Virus record (IMG/VR): IMGVR_UViG_3300002460_000092
Span: 1 to 37,442 of that record
Direction: 5' to 3' (one strand)
Length of the DNA: 37,442 nt
Origin: a virus
Of the stretch, positions 7,435 to 35,341 are shown one piece after another. A model generated the notes under the pieces. The model ran no database searches. It worked only from the letters and a program-made list of their open reading frames with translations, and was not told the DNA's origin. The number at the start of each line of letters is the position of its first letter. Position 1 is the stretch's first letter. A program made the translations under genes and the position numbers.

Positions 7435-10400
7435 ATGGAACATGAACTTGGAAGTTTTGCTCAAACAATTTTTAAAAGAACTTATGCATTTACAGAAAAT
7501 GAGACATGGGATGATTGTGCAAAAAGAGTATCTAGTGTAATTGCTTATGATAAAAAACAAGAAAAAGATTTTTATAATATTATATCTAAAAGAAAGTTTA
7601 TTCCTGGAGGAAGATACTTGTACGCTGCCGGAAGAGAAATTCAACAATTTCAGAATTGTGCTTTATTTATAGCTGAAGATTCAAGAGAAGGTTGGGCTAA
7701 ACTATTGCATGATCATGTTATGTCTCTTTCGACCGGAGCAGGTTGCGGAACGTATTATGGGAATATTAGAGCAAAAGGAACTCCAATTAAAAAATATGGA
7801 GGAGAAGCTAGTGGTCCATTGAGCTTGATGGCTATGGTTAATGAATGTGCTCGGCATGTTATGTCAGGTGGGAGTAGAAGATGCCTACCCTCAGGTACAT
7901 TGGTTCATACGTCTAGAGGTTTGATCCCAATTGAAGATATTTTTATTGGAGACGAAGTACTAACGTTTGACGGATTTAGAAAGGTCGCCAATAAATTCAA
8001 TCAAGGTATTCAACCGACAATAGAGATTGTCCATGAACTTGGCATTCTTCGTTGTACTCCTAATCACAAAGTAGCGGTTCTCCTCTCCGCTCAAGGAGAG
8101 TACACATGGAAAGAAGCTTCCCAATTAACTTCATCGGATTTGATGATGTTTATTCCACAAACAATTCCCGGTGTCCGAACGGAGTTGCCTGGGTATACCT
8201 ATTCTAGGCCAGCCAAATCTACTACTTGTCGAGACATCTCGATTCCGAAACTTGATGTTGATATGGCTTGGTTTATTGGTTTCCTACATGGTGATGGACA
8301 CGTTAGACGAATATGGAATAAAGGAAGCTACAGTAAAGGTTTAGTGTCTTTTCCTATACATAATACCCAGACTACTATAGAAGCTAAGCTATTCAAGCAA
8401 CTAGAAAAATTCAGAGTATCATGGGCAGTAAAGCAGTACACTAACTACAGAAAGATAAACGTACATTCTAAGCAACTTGCTGAGTACTTGACGGAGTTCA
8501 AACAACCAAACACAGATCTATCAGTACCTTCTTTCATACTAGAGGGAGAAGACGACATCAGAGCAGGCTACTTGGCTGGTTTATTTGATGCGGACGGTAG
8601 TGCTAAAACTCGTCCGCTTAATTGTGTTACATCGGTGTATAGGGATTATCTACGCCAAGTACAGGCTCTTTATGCCTCTTTAGGCATAGTAACTATGATC
8701 AAGGATCGAACTTATAAGAGTAGGAAGCGCCATTGGAAGCAAATATTTTGCCTTAGTTTAAAGGGACAGACCCCAGAAAAAAGATGGAATTTGATTATTC
8801 TACCCCATGTGTGTAAAATTGCCTCTCTGCCAGCGAAACAAAAACGGCAATGTGACTATAAGATTCCTTATGAATGGTTAGAAGCAAAAGAGAGGAATCA
8901 TAAGAATAGTAGTTGCGGTATCAGCATAGAGCATGTAGCTTCATTGTATGGGTATAAGTATGTGCCTAGCAAAGTTCACGGACTAAGACAGTCCACTTCT
9001 GAATATACATGGGATCTAGAAGTCTCTGACAGAAATGAATTCGTTGCGGAGGGCATGCTAGTTCACAATTCTGCCTTATGGGCTGGGCTTCCTTGGAATC
9101 ATCCAGATATAGATAATTTTATTAAATCCAAAAATTGGCCTACAATTTTTAAAGCATTAAAAGAATTTGATTTTAATAATTCTGCTTTTTTAGATATGAC
9201 AAATATTTCAGTTTGTTTAGATGATGATTTTTTTAAAGTAGTTAATGAAGATAAATCTGTTTGGAATTTATATTATAATATATGTAAAAATATGTGTAAA
9301 ACTGGTGAACCAGGTTTTTCAATTAATTTAGGTAAAAAATCGAAAGAAGTTGCTAGGAATGCATGTTTACCATCATGGTCTAGTATTCTAACTCCAGAAG
9401 GCATAAGACAACTAAAAGATATTAAAGAAGGATCTATTATTTGGTCTGGTAAAAATTGGAGTAGAGTAATTAAAAAGTGGAATACTGGATATAAACCTGT
9501 TTATAAATTTCATACTACAACAGGAACATTTATTGGAACAGAGGATCATAAAGTTGTAGAAAATGGCATAAAGGTTAAAGTTAAAGACGCAAAAGGAATT
9601 GATAGAATATCTGGACCTCCTACTTTAATCGAAGATTTAGACCCTCAAGATATTATGGATGGATTAGTAATAGGCGACGGAGGAGTCCACAAAGCTTCTA
9701 ATAATTTAATTCTACTTTATATTGGCAAGAATGATCAGTCTTATTTTAATTCTGAAATAGCACATTTAATAACTAAGCATAGATCTGGAGTATCTAAAGA
9801 GGTTTGGGAAGTTAAAACAACTATTCAACCAGAAGAATTAGTTAAAACATACAATAGAGTTATTCCAGACAGATTTTATTATGGTAATTTTAATAAAATT
9901 AAAGGGTTTTTAAAAGGATTATTTTCAGCTAATGGTAATACTTTAAAAAAATCTGGAAGAATTTGTTTAAAACAAAGTAGCAAACAATTGATTTTACAAG
10001 TACGAGATATGTTATCTGCTGTTGGAATTAAATCATATATTACTACACATAAAACTGTTACGATTAAACATCACAACGGAGAATATGAAAGTAAAAAAAA
10101 CTATGATATTAACATTACGACAGATAGAGAGCTTTTCTTTAATACAATCGGTATAATTCAACCATATAAAAAACTTTATACTAAAAGTTCTAGAAAAGAA
10201 AAAGTTACTTTTGATATCTATTCTATAGAAAGTGTAGGTATTCATGAAGTATTTGATATTACTGTAGATGATCCAGACCATACTTTTTGGACAGGAGGAG
10301 TATTAGTTTCAAATTGTACAGAGTCTGTTTCCGATAGAAATGCAGATGTTTGTAATTTAGGTTCTGTTAATTTAGCAAATATAAATAGTGTAAATGAATT

Positions 10401-11169
10401 GGAAGAAGTTACAAGAATAGCTGTCAGGTTCTTATATAACGGGACATTTCTATCTTGGGTGCCTGTTCCTGAAATGGAACAAGTTAGAAAAGAATATAGA
10501 AGAATTGGTTTAGGACTTATGGGTCTTCACGAATGGTGCATAAAGAATAATCAAAAATATGAACCTAGCAATAACCTTAAAAATTGGTTAACTTTATGGC
10601 AGCAAACTTCTGATAATGAAGCAATATTGTACGCTAAAAAAAGAAATAATACTGAACCTATAGCTATACGAGCGATAGCTCCAACCGGAACAATTTCTAT
10701 TTGCGCTCAAACAACAAGTGGAATAGAACCTATTTTTTGTGTAGCTTATAAACGTAGATTTTTGGATAAAGACAGTAAATGGAAATTTAGATATGTAGTT
10801 GATCCCACAGCAGAAAAATTAATACAACAAGGCTTTAAGCCTGAGGATATAGAAGATGCTCATAGTTTATCTCAAGATGTAGAACGTAGAATTATTATGC
10901 AAGAATTTGTTCAAAAATTCGTAGACCAAGGAATTTCGTCTACTATAAATCTTCCAGAATACGGAGAACCTGGAAACAATAATGTTAAACGTTTTGCAGA
11001 TATACTTTTAAAATATTTACCAAATTTAAGAGGAATAACCGTATATCCTGAAGGCAGCAGAGCAGGCGCACCGTTAACACCAATACGATATGATACAGCC
11101 AAACGACATGAAAATGTTACTTATGAAGAATCAGAAGAAAAATGTTTAGGAGGCGCCTGCGGCATTTAA
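7435..11169 (+). CDS. Class II (B12-dependent) ribonucleoside reductase with two inteins
   Basis: 1244 codons containing two inteins of 396 and 317 residues; the spliced enzyme is 531 residues, short for the family. Visible family features: FIPGGRYL (55-62), FQNCALF with the first redox Cys75, the catalytic N-x-C-x-E triad rebuilt by splicing as RNA + CTES (Asn642, Cys961, Glu963), DVCNLGSVNL with the second redox Cys, the phosphate-binding APTGTIS...TSGIEP, and a C-terminal Cys pair CLGGAC. It reduces ribonucleotides to deoxyribonucleotides by a cobalamin-generated thiyl radical at the catalytic Cys. No separate radical subunit gene follows, consistent with class II. It supplies precursors with ThyX and dNMP kinase just downstream. 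The assignment to class II rather than class I alpha rests on overall similarity. Confidence 0.88.
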   Translation: MEHELGSFAQTIFKRTYAFTENETWDDCAKRVSSVIAYDKKQEKDFYNIISKRKFIPGGRYLYAAGREIQQFQNCALFIAEDSREGWAKLLHDHVMSLSTGAGCGTYYGNIRAKGTPIKKYGGEASGPLSLMAMVNECARHVMSGGSRRCLPSGTLVHTSRGLIPIEDIFIGDEVLTFDGFRKVANKFNQGIQPTIEIVHELGILRCTPNHKVAVLLSAQGEYTWKEASQLTSSDLMMFIPQTIPGVRTELPGYTYSRPAKSTTCRDISIPKLDVDMAWFIGFLHGDGHVRRIWNKGSYSKGLVSFPIHNTQTTIEAKLFKQLEKFRVSWAVKQYTNYRKINVHSKQLAEYLTEFKQPNTDLSVPSFILEGEDDIRAGYLAGLFDADGSAKTRPLNCVTSVYRDYLRQVQALYASLGIVTMIKDRTYKSRKRHWKQIFCLSLKGQTPEKRWNLIILPHVCKIASLPAKQKRQCDYKIPYEWLEAKERNHKNSSCGISIEHVASLYGYKYVPSKVHGLRQSTSEYTWDLEVSDRNEFVAEGMLVHNSALWAGLPWNHPDIDNFIKSKNWPTIFKALKEFDFNNSAFLDMTNISVCLDDDFFKVVNEDKSVWNLYYNICKNMCKTGEPGFSINLGKKSKEVARNACLPSWSSILTPEGIRQLKDIKEGSIIWSGKNWSRVIKKWNTGYKPVYKFHTTTGTFIGTEDHKVVENGIKVKVKDAKGIDRISGPPTLIEDLDPQDIMDGLVIGDGGVHKASNNLILLYIGKNDQSYFNSEIAHLITKHRSGVSKEVWEVKTTIQPEELVKTYNRVIPDRFYYGNFNKIKGFLKGLFSANGNTLKKSGRICLKQSSKQLILQVRDMLSAVGIKSYITTHKTVTIKHHNGEYESKKNYDINITTDRELFFNTIGIIQPYKKLYTKSSRKEKVTFDIYSIESVGIHEVFDITVDDPDHTFWTGGVLVSNCTESVSDRNADVCNLGSVNLANINSVNELEEVTRIAVRFLYNGTFLSWVPVPEMEQVRKEYRRIGLGLMGLHEWCIKNNQKYEPSNNLKNWLTLWQQTSDNEAILYAKKRNNTEPIAIRAIAPTGTISICAQTTSGIEPIFCVAYKRRFLDKDSKWKFRYVVDPTAEKLIQQGFKPEDIEDAHSLSQDVERRIIMQEFVQKFVDQGISSTINLPEYGEPGNNNVKRFADILLKYLPNLRGITVYPEGSRAGAPLTPIRYDTAKRHENVTYEESEEKCLGGACGI
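7882..9069 (+). mobile_element. Intein 1 of ribonucleotide reductase (396 residues, complete LAGLIDADG pair)
   Basis: Begins at Cys150 (CLPSGTLVHTSRGLIPIEDI, block A), block B LGILRCTPNHKVAVL, block F RNEFVAEGMLVHN, ending at Asn545 before Ser+1. Two LAGLIDADG helices are intact: WFIGFLHGDGHV (about 279-290) and GYLAGLFDADGSA (about 378-390), each with its acidic residue. This intein therefore looks competent for both splicing and homing. The junction lies in GGSRR/SALWAGL, a conserved loop of the reductase. GC content of the second half is a little higher than that of the host gene. Confidence 0.93.
9364..10314 (+). mobile_element. Intein 2 of ribonucleotide reductase (317 residues, endonuclease degenerate)
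   Basis: Begins at Cys644 (CLPSWSSILTPEGIRQLKDI), block B TTGTFIGTEDHKVV, block F DHTFWTGGVLVSN, ending Ser-Asn (959-960) before Cys+1. The penultimate His is replaced by Ser, which some active inteins tolerate. The first LAGLIDADG helix, MDGLVIGDGGV (about 741-751), is recognisable. The second, GFLKGLFSANGN (about 824-835), has Ser-Ala-Asn where Asp-Ala-Asp is expected, so the endonuclease is probably inactive. The insertion point is directly before the catalytic thiyl-radical cysteine, which serves as the Cys+1 splicing nucleophile. Confidence 0.92.
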
Positions 11170-11696: not shown

Positions 11697-12384
11697 TATT
11701 GTAGAAGTTTTAGATGATGGATTTGTTAGGTTGGACTATTATTCTCCTAAAGATCCTGAACTACAAATTGTTAATTCTGCTAGAATATCCTATAATAAAC
11801 GTAAAAAGATCATGGGAGAAGATGATAAAGGGCTTATAAGATATTTAATGAAGAATAGGCATGGAACACCATTTGAGATGGCTGATTTTTGTTTTCATTT
11901 ACGATTACCTATTTTTGTGGCTAGAGAACTTATGCGACATCGAAATAGCAGCTTCAACGAGGTGAGTCAACGATATACGATAATAGACACAAAATTTTAT
12001 GTACCTAAAGATGAAGATGTTCGTAAACAGGTAGGTAAACAAGGAAGCTATGAATACAGAGCAATACAAGAACAAACACAAGTATTTGGGATTAAATCAT
12101 TAATAAAAGAAGTATACCAGAAAGCATCAGAAAATTATGAACTTTTATTAAAATTAAATGTAGCTAAAGAATTAGCGCGTATAGTTTTACCTATCGGAAT
12201 CTATACAGAATTATACTATAAAACAAATGCTAGATCATTAATGAATTTTTTATCTTTAAGAAATCATACCCACGCACAATTTGAAATAAGACAATATGCA
12301 AAAGTTATCGAAGAAAAATTTTTCGGTAAAATAATGCCTATCACTTATGCGGCCTTTTTAGAGTCAGAAAGGAAATCTCCATGA
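11689..12384 (+). CDS. thyX: Flavin-dependent thymidylate synthase ThyX
   Basis: 231 residues from the ATG at 11689, chosen because GGAGG lies upstream and the longer frame from 11659 lies in the previous gene. The diagnostic ThyX motif RHR(x7)S is present as RHRNSSFNEVS (83-93), followed by QRY; the C-terminal ARSLMNFLSLRNHTHAQFEIR is the second dUMP/FAD-binding region. It makes dTMP from dUMP using FAD, NADPH and methylene-tetrahydrofolate. Located between ribonucleotide reductase and dNMP kinase, it is part of the phage dNTP supply. The gene ends within four bases of the HNH element that separates it from the kinase. Confidence 0.95.
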   Translation: MSDIVEVLDDGFVRLDYYSPKDPELQIVNSARISYNKRKKIMGEDDKGLIRYLMKNRHGTPFEMADFCFHLRLPIFVARELMRHRNSSFNEVSQRYTIIDTKFYVPKDEDVRKQVGKQGSYEYRAIQEQTQVFGIKSLIKEVYQKASENYELLLKLNVAKELARIVLPIGIYTELYYKTNARSLMNFLSLRNHTHAQFEIRQYAKVIEEKFFGKIMPITYAAFLESERKSP

Positions 12385-13249
12385 TCTCTCTTCGGAGCCG
12401 CAATCCCCGAGCGATGCTCGGGGGTAGGCAACGCCTTGGTAGCGCTTCAGAACCTCAAGAGGAAGTCCTCCGAGATAACAGGAGAGAAGATATGGTAGCG
12501 AAACTTGCTGACAAAGATAACGTGATAGAAGAGACAATGTGTCTTTCGCTCAAAGTTTCTGTTCCTACGCATTTGTATCCTACTGGCTTGTGTTTCGGTA
12601 GATGGAAGATTGTGTCGGATATACAAAGACGCAATAAACATCGAAAACATAGCGTTCTTTGTAGGTGCGAGTGCGGTATAGAAAAAGAAGTAGCGCTGGA
12701 ATCCTTACTGCGGGGCGTTTCCAAAAGTTGTGGTTGTCTCAAAGTAGATAACCTAAAGAAATCTCTGCTATTGAAAGGCAGAAACTATAAGCACGGGCTG
12801 TCAGGAACTCCCGAATACGCTGCTTATCTGGGGATGATAAGACGTTGCTACAATAAAACTAGTCCAGAGTATAAGCATTACGGCGGGCGAGGAATACAAG
12901 TTGCGCCAGAATGGTTAGTACCAACAGAAGGACTCAAGAAGTTTATTCAATATATGGGTAAGCGGCCAAGCGTAAATCACTCTCTGGATAGAGTAAACAA
13001 CGACGGAAACTATGAGTCGGGGAATGTTAGATGGGTAGAAAGAGATGTTCAACTCAAAAACAGGCGCAAAATCAAAATGCTGTGTGATTTTACAGATGAG
13101 GAACTATTACAAGAAGTAGCCCAAAGACATCTGCTGTGCGAGAGCGCTATTCCAAGAGTGTTTAGCGCGAGCCCTATTGGTGGGGCTTTTGCCACGAGAG
13201 GGGTTACGGGACAAACGTGGCTACACGCGGAATCGTCGGGTGATGCCCG
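12381..13249 (+). mobile_element. Putative endonuclease-bearing insertion at the dNMP kinase start codon
   Basis: The kinase start reads ATGAGC at 13250, and the same ATGA occurs at 12381, right after an AAAGGAAA ribosome site (12368-12375) and CTCC. Removing 12381-13249 would put that ribosome site six bases before the kinase ATG, while the present kinase ATG has no good site. The inserted piece is GC-richer than its flanks, holds an HNH gene with its own ribosome site, and has clusters of short hairpins at both ends. It could be a self-splicing intron, another RNA-structured mobile element, or a free-standing homing gene. I could not identify a group I or group II catalytic core. Confidence 0.4.
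12385..12491 (+). other. Structured 5' flank of the insertion
   Basis: Contains a perfect 8-bp stem with 3-base loop (CCCCGAGC at 12405-12412 with GCTCGGGG at 12416-12423), a cUUCGg tetraloop hairpin at about 12388-12397, AGGC/GCCT around an AAC loop just after the main stem, and further CCTC/GAGG pairings before the endonuclease ribosome site. It is in frame with the HNH gene but has no resemblance to endonuclease domains. None of the stems is followed by a T run, so a terminator is unlikely. Confidence 0.4.
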
Positions 13250-13253
13250 ATGA
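12492..13253 (+). CDS. HNH homing endonuclease with one zinc module
   Basis: 253 residues from the ATG at 12492, chosen for its strong AGGAGAG site; the frame extends in phase to 12381. The Cys module at about 30-83 (GLCFGRWKIV, LCRCECG, SKSCGCL) is the same type as the two copies in the endonuclease at 1552. The nuclease part has YAAYLGMIRRCYN, HYGGRGIQV, HSLDRVNNDGNYESGNVRW (163-181) and KNRRK, as in phage HNH proteins of the 'RCxxxxxxxYxxYGGRGI' class. A DFTDEELLQEVAQRH helix follows, and the last ~50 residues overlap the hairpin-rich 3' flank and look non-conserved. It ends in an ATGA overlap with dNMP kinase. Confidence 0.82.
   Translation: MVAKLADKDNVIEETMCLSLKVSVPTHLYPTGLCFGRWKIVSDIQRRNKHRKHSVLCRCECGIEKEVALESLLRGVSKSCGCLKVDNLKKSLLLKGRNYKHGLSGTPEYAAYLGMIRRCYNKTSPEYKHYGGRGIQVAPEWLVPTEGLKKFIQYMGKRPSVNHSLDRVNNDGNYESGNVRWVERDVQLKNRRKIKMLCDFTDEELLQEVAQRHLLCESAIPRVFSASPIGGAFATRGVTGQTWLHAESSGDAR
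13144..13250 (+). other. Hairpin-rich 3' flank of the insertion
   Basis: Four successive perfect short stems are visible: GCGCTA/TAGCGC (13144-13149 with 13163-13168), AGCCC/GGGCT (13170-13174 with 13183-13187), GCCACG/CGTGGC (13191-13196 with 13216-13221) and TCGGG/CCCGA (13236-13240 with 13246-13250). The last one covers the kinase start codon region and could mask it. In addition GATGCTC at 12413-12419 is complementary to GAGCATC at 13252-13258. This density is unusual for coding DNA and suggests a folded RNA, either intron-like or regulatory. Confidence 0.4.
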
Positions 13254-14777: not shown

Positions 14778-17700
14778 ATGCCTTTTAAAAACAATACCTG
14801 GACTATCCCAATAGAAAATGATATTAAGCTTAATGAACAATTAATATCTCAAGAAACTCAAAATTTAATTGTTCCTGATAATTTACACACGATCTTAAAT
14901 AATATAGAAAACAATGACAATACTAATTTATACGCGGCTCTGGAAATATCAGGGGTAGATATCGTAATACCCTGCTTCAATGGCCTTAACCATTTAAAAC
15001 AATGTTTAAGAAATGTTGAAAGGCATACATACCTTAAAAATGTTAATATTATTATTGTTAATGATGGTTCAAATACAATAACAACTAACTATATAGAATC
15101 ATTAAAAGATAAATATACCATTATCCATAATACAGTAAACATAGGCTTTGCTGCCACTTGCAATATCGGAATCATGGCAGGTAAAAATCCATATGTAATT
15201 CTTTTGAATACAGATGTACTGGTCACTCCAGGATGGCTCCTAAAAATGCTTAAAGCCGTCTGTAGTGCTCCAAATATTGGAATGGTTAATCCTGTGACCA
15301 ACAATATCGCTATTACTTCCAGGCCATTAGAACCTGGTTTTTCATATTACGATATGAATAAAGCTGTAGAGATGTTATTTAAACCCACCTATCCAGAGAC
15401 AATACCTACAGGCTTTTGTTTATTAATAAAGCGAGAAGTTCTAGATAAGATAGGTTTATTCGAAGAAATTTATAATTCGTATGGAGAAGACAGCTCGCTT
15501 CATATGAGGATGTTAAAAGCTATTGATCCTGAAACTGGACAATGGTTAAACTATAAAGCTGTTCTTGCGGATAACTGTTATGTTTTTCATCAACACGGAG
15601 CAAGTTTTTCCGCCCTGGAAGATATTGAACAAACTATAAAAAGAAAAACTGCTTCTAATAGGTTTCATAATCAACATCCAGACTTTTCTATGTTTTGGAA
15701 TCCTTTACCTTCTGAACTTACCAATAAATTAAAAGAAATACGAAAACCTTTTCCAAAAATAAACTTTAATAAAAAAATAAACATTGCATTTTTAACATTC
15801 TCTACCAAAGAGAATGGAGCAATGTTTGTTATAAAAGATATTGTTAATGGTTTAATAGAAGACGAAACCTTTAATGTTAAAATAGTACATGTAGCTAGAA
15901 ACAGCAAAACTAATTTAGAAACAGATTATTTAAACTCTCTCCATACGGCTCCTATACTTTATGATTCAAATGATAATTTTAATGAGTTAGTATTTAATAA
16001 AGGAATTGTCATTGGATGTACAGCAGAACTAGGTCCCACTTTAGTAAACATTTGTAAAGAGAATAAAAATTTAATTCCAGTATTATTTTTACAGTCGTAT
16101 GAACCAGACTTAGCGCCAGAATTAGAAAACGAATTTAAAGAAATATATACGTTAATTAGAAAGATAATTGTTAACAATACATTAATAGGGGGAAGAATCA
16201 CTAATATTACTAACGTAGGAATTTACCCAAAAGTGATTGAACCAGGAATTGATCTTGATATGTTCTCTTATAGAGAAAGAGAGAAGCACGACCAAAGACC
16301 GACTATTATGATCCTTTTAAATAAGAATTATTTCTGGAAGAATTATGATGCCGGTATAAAAATCGCCGAGGAATTACACAAAAAATATTCAAATTCAATC
16401 AGAATATTAGCCTGTGGAGAAACTAAACAATTACATCCTTATGTTCAATATAAAGGAAAGGTATCTCAATCAAATTTTGCTAGATTATTGGGAAATGAAG
16501 TCGATATTCTTATTGATCCTTCTACGGTTCACAGCTATGGATTACCTGCATTAGAAGCTCTTTATTCGGGCTGTGCTGCAATATCATTAAAGACCGATGG
16601 TTCGGTAGCGGCCAATATAGAGGATTTTGAAATACCATCTCCTAATTGGGCTGTTTGTAAAGATGTCGAAGAAATAATCAAAAGAGTTGATGATTTAATA
16701 CCTTGCTGTCCTTTAAACACTAGAGAAATTAATTACGAAATAAAAGATAGAAATTTAATAATTGATGAATTTAAAGAGACTATAAGGGATCTCTGTTTTG
16801 AAAAAAAGAAAATAAAACCAGGATTGACTTTTATTACACCACACCTTCGTAAGTGGGGCGGACCTGCCACTATCATTACAACAGCAAATGAACTTCATAA
16901 AAGGGGGTATCCAGTAGAGATTGTATCTATCTATAAAGATTCTATTAATCAGGAATTGATTAGAAGCGCTGAAGTTCCCGTTATTTTTGGATTAGAAAAT
17001 AAACAACTATCAGATGTGGTTTTTGTTCCTAGCGACTCAGATCAACATTTTAACATTAGTGTATCAAAATGGAAAGAAAAGGTTTTATTCAAACTAAGTC
17101 ATAACCCTCGATTTCAAGAGCTAGAGGAACAAAGTCTTAATTCACCTGACTACAGTAAAATCATAACAAGTACCAAGTGGCTACAAGAATGTTGCAATAT
17201 ACCTACAGAAGGCTGGAATTACAGCTCAACCGATGCTAATGTTGTAGGATGGTATAATTACGGATTTAAAAACTTTAATTGCCATCCTAAAAATAGACAA
17301 TATAATAAACTTAATAGTTCTCCTGTTGTTATTGCTGGACTTATTCATTCTCATCCTTTAAAAGGAACAAAAGAATTAATATCAATATTTAAAAAATTAA
17401 AAGAAAAATATGAAAATAAATTACAATTTGTGGGTATCGGCGAAACTTCTATGACGGATATTCCCGACTGGTTTGAATACTATCCAAACACAAATCGCAG
17501 ACAGATGAAATCCTTATTTAAACAAATAGATATATGGGTCGGATGTTCTCAAAGCGAAGGATTGGGAAGGTTAGGATTAGAAGTTATGAGTTCCAGTGTC
17601 GCATGTGTATTGTCGGATGCACATAAAGAATATGTGAAACCAGAAGAAAATTGTTTAATATTTCCAGTTGGGGATATTACACAAGCAATTAAACAAATTG

Positions 17701-17834
17701 AAAAATTATTAGACAATTTAGATCTTTTTATGCGAATTTGTTATAATGGATATATAACTGCAGAAAACTATTCTGATCCTACTAGGTATATTGATAATAT
17801 AGAGGAAATTATTATGGATTTAAAAACTATATGA
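14778..17834 (+). CDS. Three-domain glycosyltransferase (GT2 + GT4 + GT4)
   Basis: 1018 residues with a TAGGAGATTT ribosome site. Domain 1 (about 58-300) is GT-A/GT2: VDIVIPCFNGLNHLKQCL, IIIVNDGSN, the metal-binding region LLNTDVLVTPGW, and YNSYGEDSSLHMRM. Domain 2 (about 330-660) is GT-B/GT4: NIAFLTFSTKENGAMF at its start, YPKVIEPGIDLDMF, and the donor site DPSTVHSYGLPALEALYSG. Domain 3 (about 680-1018) is a second GT4: FITPHLRKWGGPATIITT and CSQSEGLGRLGLEVMSSS. One chain could therefore make three successive glycosidic bonds. Likely targets are host surface glycans, phage glycans or modified DNA bases; the sequence does not say. It overlaps the next gene by four bases. Confidence 0.88.
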   Translation: MPFKNNTWTIPIENDIKLNEQLISQETQNLIVPDNLHTILNNIENNDNTNLYAALEISGVDIVIPCFNGLNHLKQCLRNVERHTYLKNVNIIIVNDGSNTITTNYIESLKDKYTIIHNTVNIGFAATCNIGIMAGKNPYVILLNTDVLVTPGWLLKMLKAVCSAPNIGMVNPVTNNIAITSRPLEPGFSYYDMNKAVEMLFKPTYPETIPTGFCLLIKREVLDKIGLFEEIYNSYGEDSSLHMRMLKAIDPETGQWLNYKAVLADNCYVFHQHGASFSALEDIEQTIKRKTASNRFHNQHPDFSMFWNPLPSELTNKLKEIRKPFPKINFNKKINIAFLTFSTKENGAMFVIKDIVNGLIEDETFNVKIVHVARNSKTNLETDYLNSLHTAPILYDSNDNFNELVFNKGIVIGCTAELGPTLVNICKENKNLIPVLFLQSYEPDLAPELENEFKEIYTLIRKIIVNNTLIGGRITNITNVGIYPKVIEPGIDLDMFSYREREKHDQRPTIMILLNKNYFWKNYDAGIKIAEELHKKYSNSIRILACGETKQLHPYVQYKGKVSQSNFARLLGNEVDILIDPSTVHSYGLPALEALYSGCAAISLKTDGSVAANIEDFEIPSPNWAVCKDVEEIIKRVDDLIPCCPLNTREINYEIKDRNLIIDEFKETIRDLCFEKKKIKPGLTFITPHLRKWGGPATIITTANELHKRGYPVEIVSIYKDSINQELIRSAEVPVIFGLENKQLSDVVFVPSDSDQHFNISVSKWKEKVLFKLSHNPRFQELEEQSLNSPDYSKIITSTKWLQECCNIPTEGWNYSSTDANVVGWYNYGFKNFNCHPKNRQYNKLNSSPVVIAGLIHSHPLKGTKELISIFKKLKEKYENKLQFVGIGETSMTDIPDWFEYYPNTNRRQMKSLFKQIDIWVGCSQSEGLGRLGLEVMSSSVACVLSDAHKEYVKPEENCLIFPVGDITQAIKQIEKLLDNLDLFMRICYNGYITAENYSDPTRYIDNIEEIIMDLKTI

Positions 17835-18568
17835 ATGGAATTGCTTTAGTAACTTACAATAGAGCCGAAAATCTAAAGAGCATAATCTCGACTATTCTCG
17901 AAACTTTACCAGACGACTGTAAGTTTGTTATTTGTGACGATGGTAGCACAGATAATACTTTTGAAATAGTTAAACAATTTCCTGTTGTCTATATTCGAGG
18001 AACAAATCAGGGCGTGGGAATAAACAAAAATCGCGGCTTATTTGTTCTTCAAGATTGTAATTTTATTGCTATTCTGGAGGATGATTTAATGCCTAGGATC
18101 AGTAATTGGTTTGAAATGTACAAAGATTTATACTTATATACAGGAATTCATCATTTATGTAGAGTTCAAGATAAACAAATTCCTGAAGTAATTCCTGAGT
18201 TCACAAATAATTTAAAAACAAAAGGCTTAATTCCAATCTATGGAACTAAGCCTAGAGGAGATTTTATATTTATTACTAAAGAAATATTAAGAAAAGTTGG
18301 AGGATTTAATCCTGAATTCAAAGGCGCTGGATTTTCTCATATCGAATGGCAAAATAGAATAATAAAAGCGGGTCTGATTCCTCATCCTAACAAGTGGATT
18401 GATATACGGAGTATCGAACACGGAGATTATTTTGAACAAATAGGCGATACATCCGGGGGTCGTTGGAATGAACCAGAAAAAACACAAAAGGAAATAGAAT
18501 GCAACAGGCAGATCTATCAAAAAATAAAGCACAATTCTCAGATTTACCAACCATTAATTCTAATTTAA
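17831..18568 (+). CDS. GT2 family glycosyltransferase
   Basis: 245 residues. GIALVTYNRAENLKSII (3-19), FVICDDGSTDNT and the acidic metal site AILEDDLMPRISNW identify a GT-A fold family 2 enzyme; GTNQGVGINKNRGL is the usual nucleotide-sugar loop, and a later FNPEFKGAGFSHIEW replaces the GT2 'ED' base region. Starts in an ATGA overlap with the three-domain enzyme. Its last 70 bases overlap the deformylase gene, a long overlap that suggests one or the other end is newly arisen. Confidence 0.85.
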   Translation: MNGIALVTYNRAENLKSIISTILETLPDDCKFVICDDGSTDNTFEIVKQFPVVYIRGTNQGVGINKNRGLFVLQDCNFIAILEDDLMPRISNWFEMYKDLYLYTGIHHLCRVQDKQIPEVIPEFTNNLKTKGLIPIYGTKPRGDFIFITKEILRKVGGFNPEFKGAGFSHIEWQNRIIKAGLIPHPNKWIDIRSIEHGDYFEQIGDTSGGRWNEPEKTQKEIECNRQIYQKIKHNSQIYQPLILI

Positions 18569-19098
18569 TATTAGACGTTAAAACGATAGCTTTTTCTAAA
18601 CAGATGGAATTATTAAAAACACCTTCTTTTCCTATTGAGAATATTACCCCAGACGTAAAAAAATTAGCTTATGCAATAAAGAATACCATGTATCATAATA
18701 AAGGAGTAGGTCTTGCTGCAGTTCAAATTGGAACTAATATAAATTTAATTGTAATAGATCCTGAACCTGAAAAGAAAAACTGTACTATTATGATTAATCC
18801 TAAAATTATTTGGAAATCTGATACTTCAAATGTAGACAAAGAAGGCTGTTTATCTTGTCCAGGAATTCTTTGTCATATTCCTAGAGCTAACAAGATTGAT
18901 ATCGAGTACACAGATTTAGATGGAGAAAAAATTTACAAAAATAATTGTACTCCTTGGGAATCTAGAATCATATTACATGAGATTTCTCATACAAACGGAG
19001 AGTTAATTATTGATTATCTTGGACTATTGCAACAAAGATTATATTTTGATAAACTACGAAAAATCGTAAAGAAAACTAAGCGAATTGCGAAAAAATGA
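18499..19098 (+). CDS. def: Peptide deformylase
   Basis: 199 residues. All three family motifs are present: GVGLAAVQIG (69-78), EGCLS (115-119, Cys117 a metal ligand) and HEISH (160-164, two His ligands and catalytic Glu; the usual form is HEIDH). It removes the N-formyl group from new polypeptides. Phage versions are thought to support host translation of phage proteins. The start at 18499 is chosen for its AAGGAAAT site and gives a 35-residue extension before the usual N-terminus; an ATG at 18604 is a shorter alternative without a ribosome site. It ends with a Lys-rich tail. Confidence 0.92.
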   Translation: MQQADLSKNKAQFSDLPTINSNLILDVKTIAFSKQMELLKTPSFPIENITPDVKKLAYAIKNTMYHNKGVGLAAVQIGTNINLIVIDPEPEKKNCTIMINPKIIWKSDTSNVDKEGCLSCPGILCHIPRANKIDIEYTDLDGEKIYKNNCTPWESRIILHEISHTNGELIIDYLGLLQQRLYFDKLRKIVKKTKRIAKK

Positions 19099-19303
19099 AA
19101 TAAATATTTATACTGATAATAATTGGGCTATTCAACTTATTTTTAATGTTTATTACATTTGCCATAGAAATTGTAATGCGAAATTCTCTCAGAATGGTTG
19201 GGTACACGCCGATAGTTTATTAATCTATCAATGTTTTTTCTGTCATATGCAAATTCCTGATTATATTAAACTTTTTATAGGGTTAAAAGGATCTTTAAAA
19301 TGA
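19085..19303 (+). CDS. Possible small Cys-rich protein (TTG start)
   Basis: A 72-residue frame beginning at TTG 19085 inside the deformylase end and closing in an ATGA overlap with the next gene. It contains four Cys arranged as CHRNC ... CFFCH (a possible zinc ribbon) and aromatic-rich segments. The overlapping ends on both sides fit a real cotranslated gene, but the start codon is weak and no ATG start is available. Not recognised. Confidence 0.4.
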   Translation: MRKNEINIYTDNNWAIQLIFNVYYICHRNCNAKFSQNGWVHADSLLIYQCFFCHMQIPDYIKLFIGLKGSLK

Positions 19304-20211
19304 AAATTTTATTAAGCTATAGAGTAAATTATGATAATGGTAAACCTGTAGAGACTTATGCTAGAAGTTTTCATTACTATTTGGAACGATTAGGGCATCA
19401 AGTTATTGGAGTTGGCGAGGGGCATAAAATTAATACTTTAGAAGTTGGTTTACCTGCTGATTTAATAGTTGAAATAGAATGCGGGAGAAATAAGGAAGGT
19501 AAATTCAATTATTTAGTTCCTGGAAATAAATCTTCAAAATTTCCTCCGACAATGGTATGGCTAATAGACAGTCACGGTCAAGGAGAGCTGCACTCTTCAA
19601 TCATGGACAAGTACACTCATGTATTTTTCGCAGTTTTTTCCAAACGGGATATTTTTGCTAAGCATCCTTCTGCGTACTTTTTACCTAGTGCAACAGATTT
19701 ACGCTGGTTCGGACGAGATAATTTTACACATATAACTAAACAATTTGATGTTGGATTTCATGGTTCTAAAAAAGGACTATCAAGAGCTGATAAACTAAAA
19801 GAAATCTGTCAGGAAAACAACTGGAAGTATGACATAAGACAAGTAACAAATCAATATAAACATAACATATGGCCGGCAACAGGGGAGGCTATGTCCGCCT
19901 GTAGTTTACTATTTAATAGATCACAAAAACATGATATTAATCAGAGGATCTTTGAATCAATGGCCGTTGGACGGCCACTTATAAACGATTTAGATTATTC
20001 TTCAGGTATTAGAAAACTTTTTAAACCAGAAAGACACTTTTTATCTTATGATCCTGTAACGTTTGCTGGGCTAAAAGACCAAATAAAGTATTGTTTAAAC
20101 AATCCTGTAAAAGCAAATAAAATAGCAGAAAATGCATATCAAGAAATTCTAGACAAACATTTAATTTCGCATAGAATTAACACAATGTTGGAAATTATAC
20201 GATTACAATGA
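19300..20211 (+). CDS. CgeB-like glycosyltransferase (GT-B)
   Basis: 303 residues with an AAGGAT site. The N-terminal half gives a Rossmann-like half with SYRVNYDNGKPVETYARSF and MVWLIDSHGQ; the C-terminal half has VGFHGSKKG and the hallmark FNRSQKHDINQRIFESMAVGRPLIND (about 203-228), the donor-binding motif of CgeB/Glyco_trans_1_2 enzymes. Such enzymes act in spore-coat or surface glycosylation in bacteria and occur in large phages beside other glycosyltransferases. It sits between peptide deformylase and the endonuclease-glycosyltransferase fusion. Confidence 0.85.
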   Translation: MKILLSYRVNYDNGKPVETYARSFHYYLERLGHQVIGVGEGHKINTLEVGLPADLIVEIECGRNKEGKFNYLVPGNKSSKFPPTMVWLIDSHGQGELHSSIMDKYTHVFFAVFSKRDIFAKHPSAYFLPSATDLRWFGRDNFTHITKQFDVGFHGSKKGLSRADKLKEICQENNWKYDIRQVTNQYKHNIWPATGEAMSACSLLFNRSQKHDINQRIFESMAVGRPLINDLDYSSGIRKLFKPERHFLSYDPVTFAGLKDQIKYCLNNPVKANKIAENAYQEILDKHLISHRINTMLEIIRLQ

Positions 20212-20226
20212 AAATGGAAGTGATAA

Positions 20227-21480
20227 ATGATTGACGAAGAATGGCGCCCAATTCCAGAATTCGAGGGCTTATATGAGGCATCAAATACAGGATTTATCCG
20301 CAGTGTTTGCAATCGCAAAAATACTTTTACTGGAAGAGTTCTTTCCCACTACGAAAAAAACGGAGCAATTACTCTCTTTAAGAACAATATGCCGACATAT
20401 ACAAACGTATGGAGCCTAGTTGCAGCAGCTTTTCTGGGACCTAGACCAGAAGGTTATGACATCGACCATATTGATAGAAACCGGTCCAATAACCATGTTT
20501 CGAATCTTCGATACTGCACACGACAACAGAATCAATGTAATCGAGGACCATCAAATTCCAAGACAACATCAAAATATAAAGGTGTGTCTTGGCATAGCAA
20601 TAATCTAAAGTGGAGAGCCAATATTGAAAAATCTTTCGATAGCGAAGAAGATGCAGCCTTATTCTATGACAAGATTGCCTACGCCACTGACAAGACTTTT
20701 GCGTATTTAAACTTTCCAGAGCAGATTGTCTCTATGGCAAAAGATCTAGTTCCAATCATACTCGTGCTGAACGATTCCTACTGGCTACCGTATAGTCTCA
20801 AGGCTATAAACGGACGGTTCAATCGTATTATAATTCTAGATGCCGGTAGCACGGATGGTACATTAGAAATTCTCGATTGGTTCAAGAATAATACTAAATC
20901 TGAAATTCTCCTAGAGAAAATGCCTTTTATTGAACCGCGCGCTCAGCTCGCGTATAGAAATGCACCAATAGCGGAATTAGGAAATGCAACCCATTATATG
21001 TTGCTAGATGGAGATGAAATTTGGACTACTCAAGCACTTGATCTCTTAAATAAAGAATATTATAAGTATTTTCTGAGCGGAAAACTTTACGGGAAAGTAG
21101 GTCGAATTGAAGTTTGTGAGGATTTGAAGTCTGCCTATTCGCCGAATATCTGGCTTCCACACCATAGGTTGTATCATAGATCATGCACCTGGAGCGGCAA
21201 ACATCCTGGGGAAGAAAGCCGAATACCACAAAAATCTAGCACCGAATATAAATTCAATGAAAAAATAAAAGTATTTCATTTTCATAATACTTTGAGATCA
21301 CCATTAGAAGATAAAGTACCAGGAAGAATTACTAGAAAACAACAAAAAACATATCATAGGGGTGAGATATCCCCGATTGATATATTCAAAGAACTACCAA
21401 TTTTAAAAACTCCAATAAATAATTTTACAGTTAACCCAATACTAAAGGAACTACAAAATGAACAAATGCGTAAAGTGTAA
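20227..21480 (+). CDS. NUMOD4-HNH-AP2 homing endonuclease fused to a GT2 glycosyltransferase
   Basis: 417 residues in one uninterrupted frame. Residues 4-27 (EEWRPIPEFEGLYEASNTG) are a NUMOD4 motif; 72-102 (DIDHIDRNRSNNHVSNLRYC) an HNH nuclease; 115-163 (SKYKGVSWHSNNLKWRANI) an AP2 DNA-binding domain. From Met170 the chain becomes a GT2 glycosyltransferase: PIILVLNDSYWLPYSLKAI, ILDAGSTDGTLEIL (204-217) and the metal site DGDE (261-264). The endonuclease seems to have entered the 5' end of a glycosyltransferase gene and kept the frame. An internal ATG at 20734 lacks a good ribosome site. The first 1 kb is less AT-rich than neighbours, while the last 200 bases return to the local composition. 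Whether the fused protein keeps both activities is unknown. Confidence 0.85.
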   Translation: MIDEEWRPIPEFEGLYEASNTGFIRSVCNRKNTFTGRVLSHYEKNGAITLFKNNMPTYTNVWSLVAAAFLGPRPEGYDIDHIDRNRSNNHVSNLRYCTRQQNQCNRGPSNSKTTSKYKGVSWHSNNLKWRANIEKSFDSEEDAALFYDKIAYATDKTFAYLNFPEQIVSMAKDLVPIILVLNDSYWLPYSLKAINGRFNRIIILDAGSTDGTLEILDWFKNNTKSEILLEKMPFIEPRAQLAYRNAPIAELGNATHYMLLDGDEIWTTQALDLLNKEYYKYFLSGKLYGKVGRIEVCEDLKSAYSPNIWLPHHRLYHRSCTWSGKHPGEESRIPQKSSTEYKFNEKIKVFHFHNTLRSPLEDKVPGRITRKQQKTYHRGEISPIDIFKELPILKTPINNFTVNPILKELQNEQMRKV

Positions 21481-21617: not shown

Positions 21618-24600
21618 TTATCTCATTTTCATAGCTAATCGTAGGGCTTCAACCCACTCATTTAGAGCTTGAGATCTATTATCAGCTTCAAATCTTTTAA
21701 CCCTTAAAATTTCAGATTTCATATGTTTCTTGGACATTCCTCTCCACATTGGAGATTCTCCAATTTCATCAATAAAGCTGTCCGCCCAATCACTCCATTT
21801 TTCTGTAGCTTCTTTAGGATCAAAAGGATATTCTTGAATAAATGTCGCTTTTACGGCAGCTAGCAGTTCATACGCTCTATCTTCATTATTATTAACAATA
21901 TAATAAGAAGCTTGCTTCTTTAATGAACTTCTAACAGTTTTTAATTCTTGTCCTATGATTCTTTGATTCATAGCCCTATTAGAGGGCGAAGCAGCATAAG
22001 ATTTAAATAAGCCAAAATTATTTAAAATAAAATCAACAGGAGCTTCTTTAAGTTCCATTGTTCGTGGGTCGGTAGCAAGACCAAGATCAATAGGTATCCT
22101 AGCAATATTAGCAGAAGCACCTGTAACGCTCCCTACTGCTGCTCCAGCCACTGCACCAGGAATTCCTGCGGCAGAATAACCAATACCCGCCCCAATAGCA
22201 GTTCCTCCGATGGTTGTATAGGGTCTAAATTTTTGCTCATCCGGAGCCGTAACCTTAAATCCATAGGTATGAATAAGAGGAGGAGAAACGAATCCAACTA
22301 AACCAGCCCAAACCCTTCTAAGATGATCGGCAGTTCCCTTTGCTTCGATTTCTTCACCATAAGCCGTTTGACCTGAAAGGATTTCAAGTAAAGGTTTCAT
22401 AATAGCTAAAGGTTCAACCGGAGATGCTTCTATCATTTTTGGAACTGTTAATCTTTGATAGTATTCAGGAGCCGATTCGTAATCTATTCCTAAATTAAGA
22501 GAAGACAAAGGGAGCCAATTTACAATAGCCCCTCTAAGTTTATCTTCCTTAGCTTGACTTCCTATTAAATATCCCGCTAAAGCTCCTGCAAGAGTCCCAG
22601 TGAAAGCGCCCCCGGGAACAGGTATAGGACGACCGAATCCTCCGCCTTTAAGAATAGCGGCTAATGCTGCCCCACCAGCACCTCCTCCAATAAGACCTTG
22701 TGTTTGTGAAATATCCTTACTTTCTCCTACGATAGTCTGAGGAGTTTGGGCCCAATAAGGAAGATTTCTTTTTGCTTCAACTACAGACTCCGGGGTCTCA
22801 CCTCCAAAAATATTCTCTAATGATTGAATAATATCTACAGCATGAAGCCAAGGAAGAATTTTTAACGGATTATCCATCATTTGATTTTTAGCAATTCGCA
22901 ATACTTCCGAAGGAAAAGTAATCCAAGGAAGCATAATTCTTCTTGATCCAGTAACAAACTTTCCAGTAGTATGATACATTGGCATGTATCTTGCTGTTAA
23001 CATAGCTGCCGAATCAGGAGAAAGTCCTTCGGCAATATACTTAAAATACATTTGAGTTTTAGGAACATAATCTCCTGCAAGATAAAAATCACTAAATTTA
23101 CGAATTGATGATCCTATAACCGGGGTTTCACTTAATGAAAGTAAAGAACCAATAACTTTTTTACCAAATCCTCCTTTACGCATTCTATCATAAATTCTCT
23201 GTATATGTTTTAAGCCTTCTACTTCAGCAAATGAGCTATATTCAGTTAATTGTTTAAATGCTTCAGTAGCAAAATGATCATTTAAATTGATAGTTATTTT
23301 TTTACCTTTACTATTAAAAACATTGATTGTTCCTAATTTTATTTTATTATTTATAATAAATTGATCAATTATTTCATTAGGAATTTCTTTTAATCCTGCT
23401 CCAATTGAAACTAAATCTTGTGGAGCGTCAATTACAGCCTTAAAGTTTTTTCTTCTTAAATGAAGAATCTTCATAAGTGCAGCATTAGAATGCTCTCCTA
23501 TATTTACAATATTGGGATCAAGAGGAAAAACACCCCCCCAAGATAAAAATACCTGATTCCCGATTAAATTTTGTAGCTGTGTATTGGGATTCATGGACGT
23601 ACTCATAGTTTTATGGAAAGAAATAATGCCAGCTAGAATATCAGTGGCTGTTTGTGTTTGAACAAACATTCCTTCTTTTCCAAAAAAACTATCATAATGC
23701 GCTTTTAGTATCCAGGGTAGTTTTCCATCAGAAAGTAACTCTGGATTATTTTTTGCGAAAATCCGTCTTAAAATCTCTCTACCAGGCATCCTTTCTAAGG
23801 AAATATAACCTGCCATTTTAGTTCGACCGATTGTATTCTGGTAAATATCATCAGTCAAGGAAAGACCTTTATCAACAGAATCTTTAATAAAATCTTTCAT
23901 AAATTTAAAATTATGATAAAGCTGTCTATCTATGAAATAACCTCTAAATGTAAGATTAATAGGATCTGTAATTAATTTTTTCCCAGTCTGAACATTACTA
24001 TCCATTTGATTTAATATTTGCAAAATTTCAGGTAAAGATTTTTCTCTGTGAAGTAAAGTCGTGCTTTCTAGATCTGGCCATTTTATAAATTCCCATGCTT
24101 TTTCTGGTTCATCTCTAGAAAAAGAAAATATACTCTTCACTCCTTTCTTAGAAGAAGGAACTGGGGTGCTTATCCATTGAGCGGGAATATGTCTTGGTAT
24201 TTTAGATAATGTATCACTATCAATCATGCCAAGTTCAAATGCTTGTTTTTGATGAACTTCCATTGCTTCTCTGAGTCCTACGGCCCATCGAACAGTTGTA
24301 GGATGCACATCCGCAGGAAGAGGATAGTTTGTAGGATCTAACCAATAACGAAGAACTTCTGTATTTCTTGCGTTAGTAGTAATTTCTTCTGGTATATCAG
24401 TAAAAAATCGACCTAAATTTTCGGTTTTATAAAATTCATCTAAACTTTTACCAAACTTAGCAACATCGCTTGGCTGAGTAGCATTAGCAACTTTCCAATA
24501 AGAATTCGCAAATTCAGAGTCAAACCAGTGACGTAATTTCTGCAAGGATCCAACTTTAATTTCTTTTCCTGCCCAATAGTATGATTCTTGACCAGAAGCA

Positions 24601-25367
24601 ATTGCTTTACTAAGCAGACTATTACGAGTAATTTTTTGTTCAGTCATAGCAAGAATTCTTGCTTGTTTTAAAGCTTTTTTAGTTGTCTCTATTTCTGGGT
24701 TTAAAAATCCTTTTTGAGCTAACCAAGATATTTCATCTGTTTCATTAGAAAAAGCTTTAAACCATTTAGATAATTGTAAAGTTGGATCCGCCATATCGTC
24801 TAAATTGTTCGTCCAATCTATAAATTTAAATCCTGTTCCGAATTTTTGTCCAAGTCTTCCAACTTTAAGACTTTTATTGACCGCAGAAATAACAGGAAAA
24901 AAATCTAATCCTAAACCTATAGATCTTAATACATTAATCCAAAGAGGTTCTTCCGCCCAAGTTTGTTTAGCATTTTCTAAATTCCAGCTAACACCTTCTG
25001 TATCCCACTTAAAGCCTAAAATTTGTGCATCATCCCCAATAAAGAGGTTAATAAGATTTCTAGGAACAATATTAGGATCACTAAAGCCTAATTCTCTAAT
25101 TTTAAAATTTCTTTCATTTATTCTTGATTCGAATTTTTCTTTTAATATACTTTTCTTTTCTAACTGTTTAGTACCTTTAGTAAGAATTTTTTGTATACGC
25201 AAATCATTTTGTTCTGAACTTTTAGAAAGTAAAGATCCTATTTTTGGTATAGTTTCCTCAGTAAATTCCTTTTCCTCCGTCTTATCTAAAGGATCAAAAT
25301 TTTCTAAATCTTGTTCAGTTTCAGAATCAAGATAACCTGAAAGTTCACTCATTAATGGTGACGACAT
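21618..25367 (-). CDS. Large internal virion / DNA-ejection protein
   Basis: 1249 residues with an AAGGAAAA ribosome site. The N-terminus is acidic and disordered-looking. The middle carries FHKTMSTSMNPNTQLQNLIGN, a motif typical of very large phage 'polyvalent' virion proteins. Two glycine-zipper hydrophobic segments lie at about 889-935 (GGAGGAALAAIL, GTLAGALAGYLIGS) and 1051-1085 (GAGIGYSAAGIPGAVAGAAV), suited to membrane insertion. Size and last position in the late operon match T7 gp16-like proteins, which extend the ejection channel through the host envelope. No transglycosylase motif was found. Family assignment is by layout, not by direct similarity. Confidence 0.6.
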   Translation of the reverse strand: MSSPLMSELSGYLDSETEQDLENFDPLDKTEEKEFTEETIPKIGSLLSKSSEQNDLRIQKILTKGTKQLEKKSILKEKFESRINERNFKIRELGFSDPNIVPRNLINLFIGDDAQILGFKWDTEGVSWNLENAKQTWAEEPLWINVLRSIGLGLDFFPVISAVNKSLKVGRLGQKFGTGFKFIDWTNNLDDMADPTLQLSKWFKAFSNETDEISWLAQKGFLNPEIETTKKALKQARILAMTEQKITRNSLLSKAIASGQESYYWAGKEIKVGSLQKLRHWFDSEFANSYWKVANATQPSDVAKFGKSLDEFYKTENLGRFFTDIPEEITTNARNTEVLRYWLDPTNYPLPADVHPTTVRWAVGLREAMEVHQKQAFELGMIDSDTLSKIPRHIPAQWISTPVPSSKKGVKSIFSFSRDEPEKAWEFIKWPDLESTTLLHREKSLPEILQILNQMDSNVQTGKKLITDPINLTFRGYFIDRQLYHNFKFMKDFIKDSVDKGLSLTDDIYQNTIGRTKMAGYISLERMPGREILRRIFAKNNPELLSDGKLPWILKAHYDSFFGKEGMFVQTQTATDILAGIISFHKTMSTSMNPNTQLQNLIGNQVFLSWGGVFPLDPNIVNIGEHSNAALMKILHLRRKNFKAVIDAPQDLVSIGAGLKEIPNEIIDQFIINNKIKLGTINVFNSKGKKITINLNDHFATEAFKQLTEYSSFAEVEGLKHIQRIYDRMRKGGFGKKVIGSLLSLSETPVIGSSIRKFSDFYLAGDYVPKTQMYFKYIAEGLSPDSAAMLTARYMPMYHTTGKFVTGSRRIMLPWITFPSEVLRIAKNQMMDNPLKILPWLHAVDIIQSLENIFGGETPESVVEAKRNLPYWAQTPQTIVGESKDISQTQGLIGGGAGGAALAAILKGGGFGRPIPVPGGAFTGTLAGALAGYLIGSQAKEDKLRGAIVNWLPLSSLNLGIDYESAPEYYQRLTVPKMIEASPVEPLAIMKPLLEILSGQTAYGEEIEAKGTADHLRRVWAGLVGFVSPPLIHTYGFKVTAPDEQKFRPYTTIGGTAIGAGIGYSAAGIPGAVAGAAVGSVTGASANIARIPIDLGLATDPRTMELKEAPVDFILNNFGLFKSYAASPSNRAMNQRIIGQELKTVRSSLKKQASYYIVNNNEDRAYELLAAVKATFIQEYPFDPKEATEKWSDWADSFIDEIGESPMWRGMSKKHMKSEILRVKRFEADNRSQALNEWVEALRLAMKMR

Positions 25368-34231: not shown

Positions 34232-34260
34232 ATTATATCGGATTTTACTATTTTCTCCAA
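34232..34260 (-). promoter_or_regulatory. Candidate leftward promoter
   Basis: On the - strand TTGGAG (34260-34255) is 17 bases upstream of a perfect TATAAT (34237-34232); a second GATATAAT follows ten bases on (TATAAT at 34227-34222). The pair sits directly upstream of the 126-residue virion gene and overlaps the end of the HNH gene. In AT-rich DNA such boxes arise by chance, and the -35 match is poor, so this is tentative. Confidence 0.3.
34242..34254 (-). repeat. 13-bp direct repeat, copy A
   Basis: ATTTTACTATTTT on the + strand, overlapping the stop of the HNH gene. An identical 13-base copy is at 34911-34923 on the far side of that gene, 669 bases away. The surrounding bases differ. Confidence 0.7.
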
Positions 34261-34895
34261 AATTCTTTTTCTTTGTGATACCTCTTAATGTTATCTATTT
34301 GCCAAAGAGGTCTAAGATTAGTATAATGACAAACCTTTAAGACTTGTTCTCGATCTGTTAGATCTACAGTATAAAACGGAATAATATGATCAATGCTCCA
34401 CATACTTTTACCTCTTCCATAATTCTCCCAGGCCATTCCTGGAAGGAATTGGTTTTCTATATGAACCATTAGTTCTGCTTTGGTACAACCTAAGTCTCGA
34501 ATCGATGAGCACAACTTAGTTTTTCCTTTTAGAACACGAGCAAATCTGTTACGGAGCACGTTTTCTATTCTGAATTGAATATCAGAATCATAACATTTTC
34601 TTCGATACTTTCTTTGAATTCGTGCTATAACTTCTTTTCCGCGCTCAGTTTTTCGGTAATCTTTAATACGCTTTGAATTTTTTTCAGCACAAAACCTACA
34701 GCGTATACGGCCTTCTTCGCTCTTAGATCTACAATTAACGCAAATACCATTTTCTTTATTTTTATTATATTGTTTATTAGATTTTTCATCAAAGCATTTT
34801 TTACACCAAGTACAAAAGCCATCTTTTGTTACTTTGCATTTATAGAACTTCTCAAAGTTTTTCTCTTCTTTGCATTTAGAACAATATTTTAACAT
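34248..34895 (-). CDS. Free-standing HNH homing endonuclease
   Basis: 215 residues. The N-terminal third has zinc-finger Cys pairs (CSKC at 5-8, CTWCKKC at 28-34, CVNC at 52-55, CRFC at 66-69), usual for DNA recognition. The C-terminal nuclease has CTKAELMVHIENQF, GMAWENYGRGKSMWSIDHI (His170 with Asp169) and HYTNLRPLWQIDNIKR (190-205), the HNH form found in phage intron and intergenic endonucleases. It separates the 94-frame conserved gene from the 126-residue virion gene and is bounded by 13-bp direct repeats. No ribosome site is obvious (AAAGAGTTTTA only). AT-rich, so long resident or from a similar phage. Confidence 0.85.
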   Translation of the reverse strand: MLKYCSKCKEEKNFEKFYKCKVTKDGFCTWCKKCFDEKSNKQYNKNKENGICVNCRSKSEEGRIRCRFCAEKNSKRIKDYRKTERGKEVIARIQRKYRRKCYDSDIQFRIENVLRNRFARVLKGKTKLCSSIRDLGCTKAELMVHIENQFLPGMAWENYGRGKSMWSIDHIIPFYTVDLTDREQVLKVCHYTNLRPLWQIDNIKRYHKEKEFWRK

Positions 34896-35215: not shown

Positions 35216-35341
35216 CTACATGGCCCTTCGAATGACCAACTCGACTCCGATGAGCCTTGCGTCTCCGGTCATATCGTCGGTCAAGGTCGAGGTCTCGTTA
35301 GGATCCCGCGACACGCGCACATGCATCAGCTCCCCAGCAGC
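35216..35341 (-). pseudogene. Out-of-frame stub of a tail protein C-terminus
   Basis: In the frame ending at 35216 the last 41 codons read AAGELMHVRVSRDP, NETSTLTDDMTGDARLIGVE, LVIRRAM. The pattern 'GDxVxxRVxRDxxxxxDTxxxDARLIGV' is the closing strand pair of a domain common at the end of phage tail and baseplate proteins (family recognition from memory). The frame is different from the 419-residue gene that overlaps it (35298-36557) and no full upstream part is visible, so this is either the end of a frameshifted version of that gene or a recombination scar. Its stop lies 38 bases before the next gene's start, a normal operon spacing. Confidence 0.35.

Follow-up and report, generated by a model that had tools for sequence, protein, structure and literature searches.

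A phage homing endonuclease gene continuing in frame into the glycosyltransferase gene that follows it

Homing endonuclease genes of phage T4 occupy gene junctions, including junctions beside glucosyltransferase genes, and co-conversion of the sequences that flank them is established (PMC2988022). Genes for HNH endonucleases that carry an AP2 domain (HNH-AP2) are common in some phages, where they are unstable, vary in their stops, carry in-frame deletions and mark exchange boundaries (PMC10448857). The WHO elements of yeast take a portion of the host gene along when they move (PMC7282813). Here we describe an open reading frame (ORF) of a virus, at positions 20,227-21,480 of IMG/VR record IMGVR_UViG_3300002460_000092, in which an HNH homing endonuclease and a GT2 glycosyltransferase (GT) share one frame. 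The whole sequence analysed, positions 1-37,442 of that record, is called the window; the fused ORF and its parts given below lie on the plus strand.

The window endonuclease resembles the T4 mob genes and the ICP1-like HNH-AP2 genes termed 'IPA-HNH' in its NUMOD4/HNH/AP2 make-up and in its position at a junction beside a useful gene; likewise, all of them are present in some relatives and absent from others, show in-frame deletions and vary in their stops (PMC2988022, PMC10448857). In contrast, the mob and IPA-HNH genes are described as separate genes, whereas the window endonuclease reads through into the next gene as part of one protein. A homing gene in or against a working host gene is also found with mobE in nrdA of phage Aeh1 and with other gene-splitting insertions (PMC2988022), although in Aeh1 the host gene is in pieces, while the window GT is whole and gains an N-terminal extension. 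The WHO elements at FBA1 offer the parallel of a homing gene whose movement includes a portion of the host gene, with a functioning chimera as the result (PMC7282813); the window differs in that its nuclease is of the HNH type, the part concerned is the 5′ part, and the movement is one that we infer.

The fused ORF, which was confirmed as a genuine feature of the sequence, runs for 417 codons with zero internal stops. Its domain content was established with Pfam and PHROG. NUMOD4 (residues 4-39; 32.3 bits, gathering cutoff 23.4) and HNH_3 (residues 64-103; 51.8 bits, gathering cutoff 24.8) both passed, AP2 (residues 115-151) scored 13.7 bits, far under its cutoff of 33.3, and Glyco_tranf_2_4 (residues 186-269) scored 26.0 bits, slightly under 27.5. 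PHROG 99 (HNH endonuclease) matched residues 16-169. Two whole genes are thereby joined end to end, the endonuclease at about residues 1-165 and the GT from about Met170, and the endonuclease is not a free-standing gene, since it has no stop of its own and continues in frame into the GT. This agrees with an earlier note on this DNA, in which the endonuclease was read as the N-terminal part of an enzyme gene, joined without a stop. An intein-borne endonuclease was rejected, as the protein has no Hint or intein domain in Pfam and a whole GT lies behind the endonuclease and a different whole gene ahead of it. No earlier report of an endonuclease-glycosyltransferase fusion was found in the open-access literature, which does not prove that none exists.

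The left side of the insertion junction is the 3′ end of an upstream GT gene (Glyco_trans_1_2; 19,300-20,211, plus strand), whose homologue in the relatives (38-44% identity) stands directly before the homologue of the GT studied here. The gene order GT2, upstream GT, this GT is kept in ten distinct loci, one on a contig of a metagenome-assembled genome (MAG) labelled Deltaproteobacteria (L098) and the others on viral contigs (L109, L110, L111, L112, L114, L116, L117, L118 and L119; L106 is the contig of L116 and L107 that of L118, L113 repeats L112 and L115 repeats L114). This GT is a stand-alone gene in all ten. Its start overlaps or directly abuts the stop of the upstream GT in five loci; in the other five the two genes are separated by a spacer or a small unrelated ORF. 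Because none of the ten syntenic loci carries an endonuclease at the junction of the two GT genes, these represent empty sites, and the fusion is the derived state in the lineage of the window. Homologues in which the same boundary separates an endonuclease gene from a GT gene, named in the earlier note as the case that would speak against a fusion, were not found in that literal form: no homologue has an endonuclease there, and the boundary without the insert is that of two GT genes. When 46 genomes of the phylum of the MAG were searched, the only match was the stand-alone GT of the MAG itself. At the junction that corresponds to the window endonuclease site, L110, L111, L114, L116 and L117 hold small ORFs or spacers that differ from one another, and the joint between the upstream GT and this GT seems to accept several kinds of insertion.

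The C-terminal part of the ORF comprises 248 residues from Met170 (20,734-21,477). Its assignment as a GT2 enzyme, also made earlier, was confirmed by relatives and by modelling, which predict a GT2 glycosyltransferase with a GT-A fold. A DNA search of the phage collection and single-protein scans gave no close relative, and the GT relatives were reached by stepwise searches via distant GTs. They are 40-45% identical to the window GT, eight of them are full length or nearly so, and the start of the window GT falls within one or two residues of theirs. The two halves of the ORF were modelled separately, and the alignments consist of the window sequence and the loci obtained from the scans. The model of the GT half is confident (predicted local distance difference test score, pLDDT, 88.5; predicted template modelling score, pTM, 0.89), and the closest solved folds are GT-A/GT2 enzymes such as ThuS, SunS, SpsA, TarS and TarP. 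The window GT is like GT-A/GT2 enzymes (Glyco_tranf_2_4; SunS, ThuS, SpsA and TarS folds) in fold, domain order and DxD-type motif, which is retained as DGDE. Those enzymes are made without a nuclease, and the phage subgroup adds conserved HHRLYH, HPGE and HFHN motifs, which are common to the phage relatives and retained in the window GT. On the L116 contig an in-frame TAA (L106:3499-3501) lies about two-thirds into the GT, with the downstream sequence still similar, and represents either a broken gene or a sequence error.

The endonuclease part (residues 1-166; 20,227-20,724) consists of NUMOD4 at residues 4-39, HNH_3 at residues 64-103 and a shortened AP2 at residues 115-165. Both by sequence and by fold, the closest solved structure to its NUMOD4-HNH part is I-HmuI (PDB 1u3e), which, unlike the window endonuclease, is intron-borne, has no AP2 and has no enzyme fused behind it. 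The conserved residues D80, H81, N93 and N102 are retained, and H81, N93 and N102, of the HNH core, show 95-100% conservation across 42 relatives. Residue 62, which is His in 98% of these relatives, is Trp in the window. Between two fixed columns of AP2, the window has 9 residues compared with 17 in 42 of 45 relatives (13, 16 and 21 in the remaining three); the missing segment is an 8-residue hairpin in the region of AP2 strands 2-3 (20,611-20,643). The endonuclease had been called a complete NUMOD4-HNH-AP2 protein, a description that is not fully right, given the shortened AP2 and the Trp in place of His62. The view that the AP2 domain is destroyed was dropped, because AlphaFold still models it with high confidence as a short three-stranded sheet and a helix. 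On the model, AP2 appears trimmed rather than destroyed, with DNA binding possibly weakened.

Stand-alone relatives of the endonuclease, from phages and viral contigs, mostly terminate at the LNFP end of AP2 or a few residues beyond, and the fusion joint (codons 165-169; 20,719-20,733), between this point and the GT start, therefore lies at the natural end of an endonuclease gene. No enzyme fusion was present among 80 endonuclease relatives from viral contigs, which extend at most 91 residues past the matched stretch and whose longest ORF has 312 residues. The proposed search for relatives with and without the endonuclease part has thus returned the GT alone in ten syntenic loci and the endonuclease free of an enzyme in all 80 relatives.

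The translation signals of the two halves differ. The Shine-Dalgarno duplex with the 16S tail is good at the fusion start (-9.6 kcal/mol at 20,227), which is preceded by the ribosome-site region GGAAGTGATAA (20,214-20,226, plus strand), and weak at Met170 (-3.4 kcal/mol at 20,734). The prediction that the GT lacks a convincing ribosome site of its own was therefore upheld. Some other genes of the window have ribosome sites as weak as that of Met170. Where the junction is tight in relatives, the last part of the upstream GT gene contains the ribosome site of the GT, as with GGAGGT in L107/L118 and L112.

The base composition changes inside the GT. The GC content at third codon positions (GC3) stands at 0.35 for the endonuclease and at 0.36 for GT codons 1-171, but at 0.14 for the 77 codons that end the GT; elsewhere in the window it is about 0.21. 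A single change point within the fusion was placed at 21,256 (support 21,193-21,277; permutation p = 0.003), and a fit of two change points over the upstream GT and the fusion set the edges at 20,176 and 21,256 and exceeded all 200 permutations. The higher-GC3 stretch so delimited (20,176-21,256, plus strand) takes in the endonuclease as well as the 5′ two-thirds of the GT and is a possible co-conversion tract. None of the relatives shows a GC3 drop between the two GT parts. In the tree of the N-terminal part (N-part) of the GT the window has the longest branch, and eight of the ten columns at which only the window GT departs from an otherwise invariant state lie in the N-part; supported branches in the N-part and C-part trees are too few to prove recombination. 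Homing in which the 5′ two-thirds of the GT were co-converted would explain the GC3 step, the long N-part branch and the N-part departures, whereas relaxed constraint near the joint would account for the substitutions and not for the composition. Arrival of the endonuclease together with the first two-thirds of the GT, by co-conversion, is therefore possible. The earlier remark on composition holds: the joint and the first two-thirds of the GT do differ from the AT-rich ends, and the composition that the endonuclease shares with most of the GT is consistent with joint movement.

In three of the ten loci, the cassette has HNH_3 genes at junctions other than this one, each overlapping the stop or start of a neighbour by a few bases: before the GT2 gene (L098:3-473, overlap gATGA), before the upstream GT (L110:3262-3702, overlap ATGGCTGA) and directly after this GT (L106:3726-4172 in L116/L106, overlap ATGA). 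In L098 and L110 the tail of the HNH_3 gene holds a purine-rich ribosome site for the GT that follows. With abutting HNH_3 genes at three junctions, the cassette is therefore a repeated home of HNH genes that lie flush against GT genes. The fusion in the window is one step beyond these, in that the reading frame is single.

Starting from what is directly observed, namely the open frame, the empty sites, the synteny, the end-to-end join of two whole genes and the composition step, we consider it likely that a free-standing HNH gene inserted at a tight GT/GT junction and lost its stop in frame, and that the GT is now the C-terminal part of a fusion. In the empty state, the downstream GT would start inside or just past the stop of the upstream GT and draw on a ribosome site located within, or close to, the last part of the upstream gene. 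An HNH homing-endonuclease gene would have landed at this junction between two GT genes of a phage glycan cassette and taken over the nearby ribosome site. The insertion would have parted the GT from that site, and read-through, once the endonuclease stop had been lost in frame a few codons ahead of the GT start, would have restored GT translation. As the C-terminal part of the 417-residue fusion, the GT most likely still acts on its usual acceptor, and the nuclease part would be a tolerated passenger with the HNH core kept, AP2 trimmed and nuclease activity presumably reduced. Homing with co-conversion of the flank perhaps brought in the endonuclease jointly with the 5′ two-thirds of the GT. 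The fusion is thus probably a rare by-product of the insertion of a selfish gene, tolerated by the phage, and not a purpose-built hybrid enzyme.

Several observations weigh against this origin. The same endonuclease is not found as a separate gene at this junction among the relatives, so that the intermediate state was not seen, and our analysis found no donor of the proposed co-conversion tract. Of 67 columns that do not vary among seven full-length relatives, the window GT deviates at 10, compared with 0-5 for the others, and its function may for this reason be relaxed. The main doubt is that the joint is carried by one consensus contig only, a fact that also favours a consensus or assembly error, in which the endonuclease and the GT would really be separate abutting genes joined by an erroneous base or indel. 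A single substitution would turn codon 165 or codon 166 into a stop, a shift of one base would bring the endonuclease to an end soon after the GT start, in a typical overlap, and the other HNH genes of the cassette show overlaps of a few bases with their neighbours and no fusion. Isolated consensus errors are, however, rare in metagenome assemblies, and such an error would have to fall within a few codons. Since Met170 has no good ribosome site, unlike the GT starts behind the L098 and L110 endonucleases, we consider an error of this kind rather unlikely.

The single frame could also yield two products, with internal initiation at Met170, or proteolysis, freeing the GT, so that the fusion would not be the working form. 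The coincidence of Met170 with the start position of the relatives would suit this, as would the weak ribosome sites of some other window genes, but the difference in duplex energy between Met170 and the fusion start makes it quite improbable. A functional chimera, in which the HNH-AP2 part binds DNA and carries the GT to it, for instance for glycosylation of phage DNA, had been raised in the earlier note. Both halves are predicted to fold, the phage also encodes a deoxynucleoside monophosphate kinase, a thymidylate synthase and several GTs, and the homing endonucleases of T4 sit beside its DNA glucosyltransferases (PMC2988022). Nevertheless, all ten syntenic relatives make the GT separately, without a DNA-binding part and within a GT cassette, the genes examined include no identified base hydroxymethylase, AP2 is trimmed, and the closest solved folds are those of peptide, teichoic-acid and polysaccharide GTs. 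Nothing indicates a DNA acceptor, and a working chimera of this type is very improbable; that the HNH-AP2 part was kept as a DNA-binding module directing the GT to DNA, as a new kind of DNA-modifying enzyme, is barely credible.

Insertion of an HNH gene followed by loss of its stop, the origin that we favour, suggests that a free-standing homing gene can enter a very tight junction and yet not shut off the gene behind it, by coming to encode the N-terminus of that gene. With HNH genes at four of its joints across related phages, one phage GT cassette provides a natural system for following how homing genes and their cargo travel. If the fusion is expressed, it would represent one way in which enzyme genes acquire endonuclease domains.

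The remainder of the conserved cassette (14,778-19,098, plus strand), defined by Pfam, PHROG and synteny, holds a large two-domain GT, the GT2 gene at 17,831 and a peptide deformylase at 18,499. A convergent gene for a large virion-type protein (21,618-25,367, minus strand) closes the cassette in the window and also in relatives, with homologues in eight of the ten loci; the other two loci stop short of it.

The window is rich in homing-type genes. The ribonucleotide reductase gene (7,435-11,169; 1,244 codons) contains intein-splicing and LAGLIDADG/Hom_end domains, probably as two inteins, and a gene for a DNA polymerase exonuclease subunit (3,224-4,756) has a LAGLIDADG-like insertion that is probably an intein. 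An HNH-type gene (PHROG 374; 12,381-13,253) has 46% GC in a genome of roughly 33% GC, together with N- and C-terminal extensions that have no family match. An endonuclease VII-type gene (1,489-2,382) bears an extra N-terminal half, and a small HNH-looking gene at 34,248-34,895 has no Pfam match. Islands of 52-55% GC are present in this AT-rich genome at 2,756-3,175 and at 35,298-37,373, the latter at the contig end.
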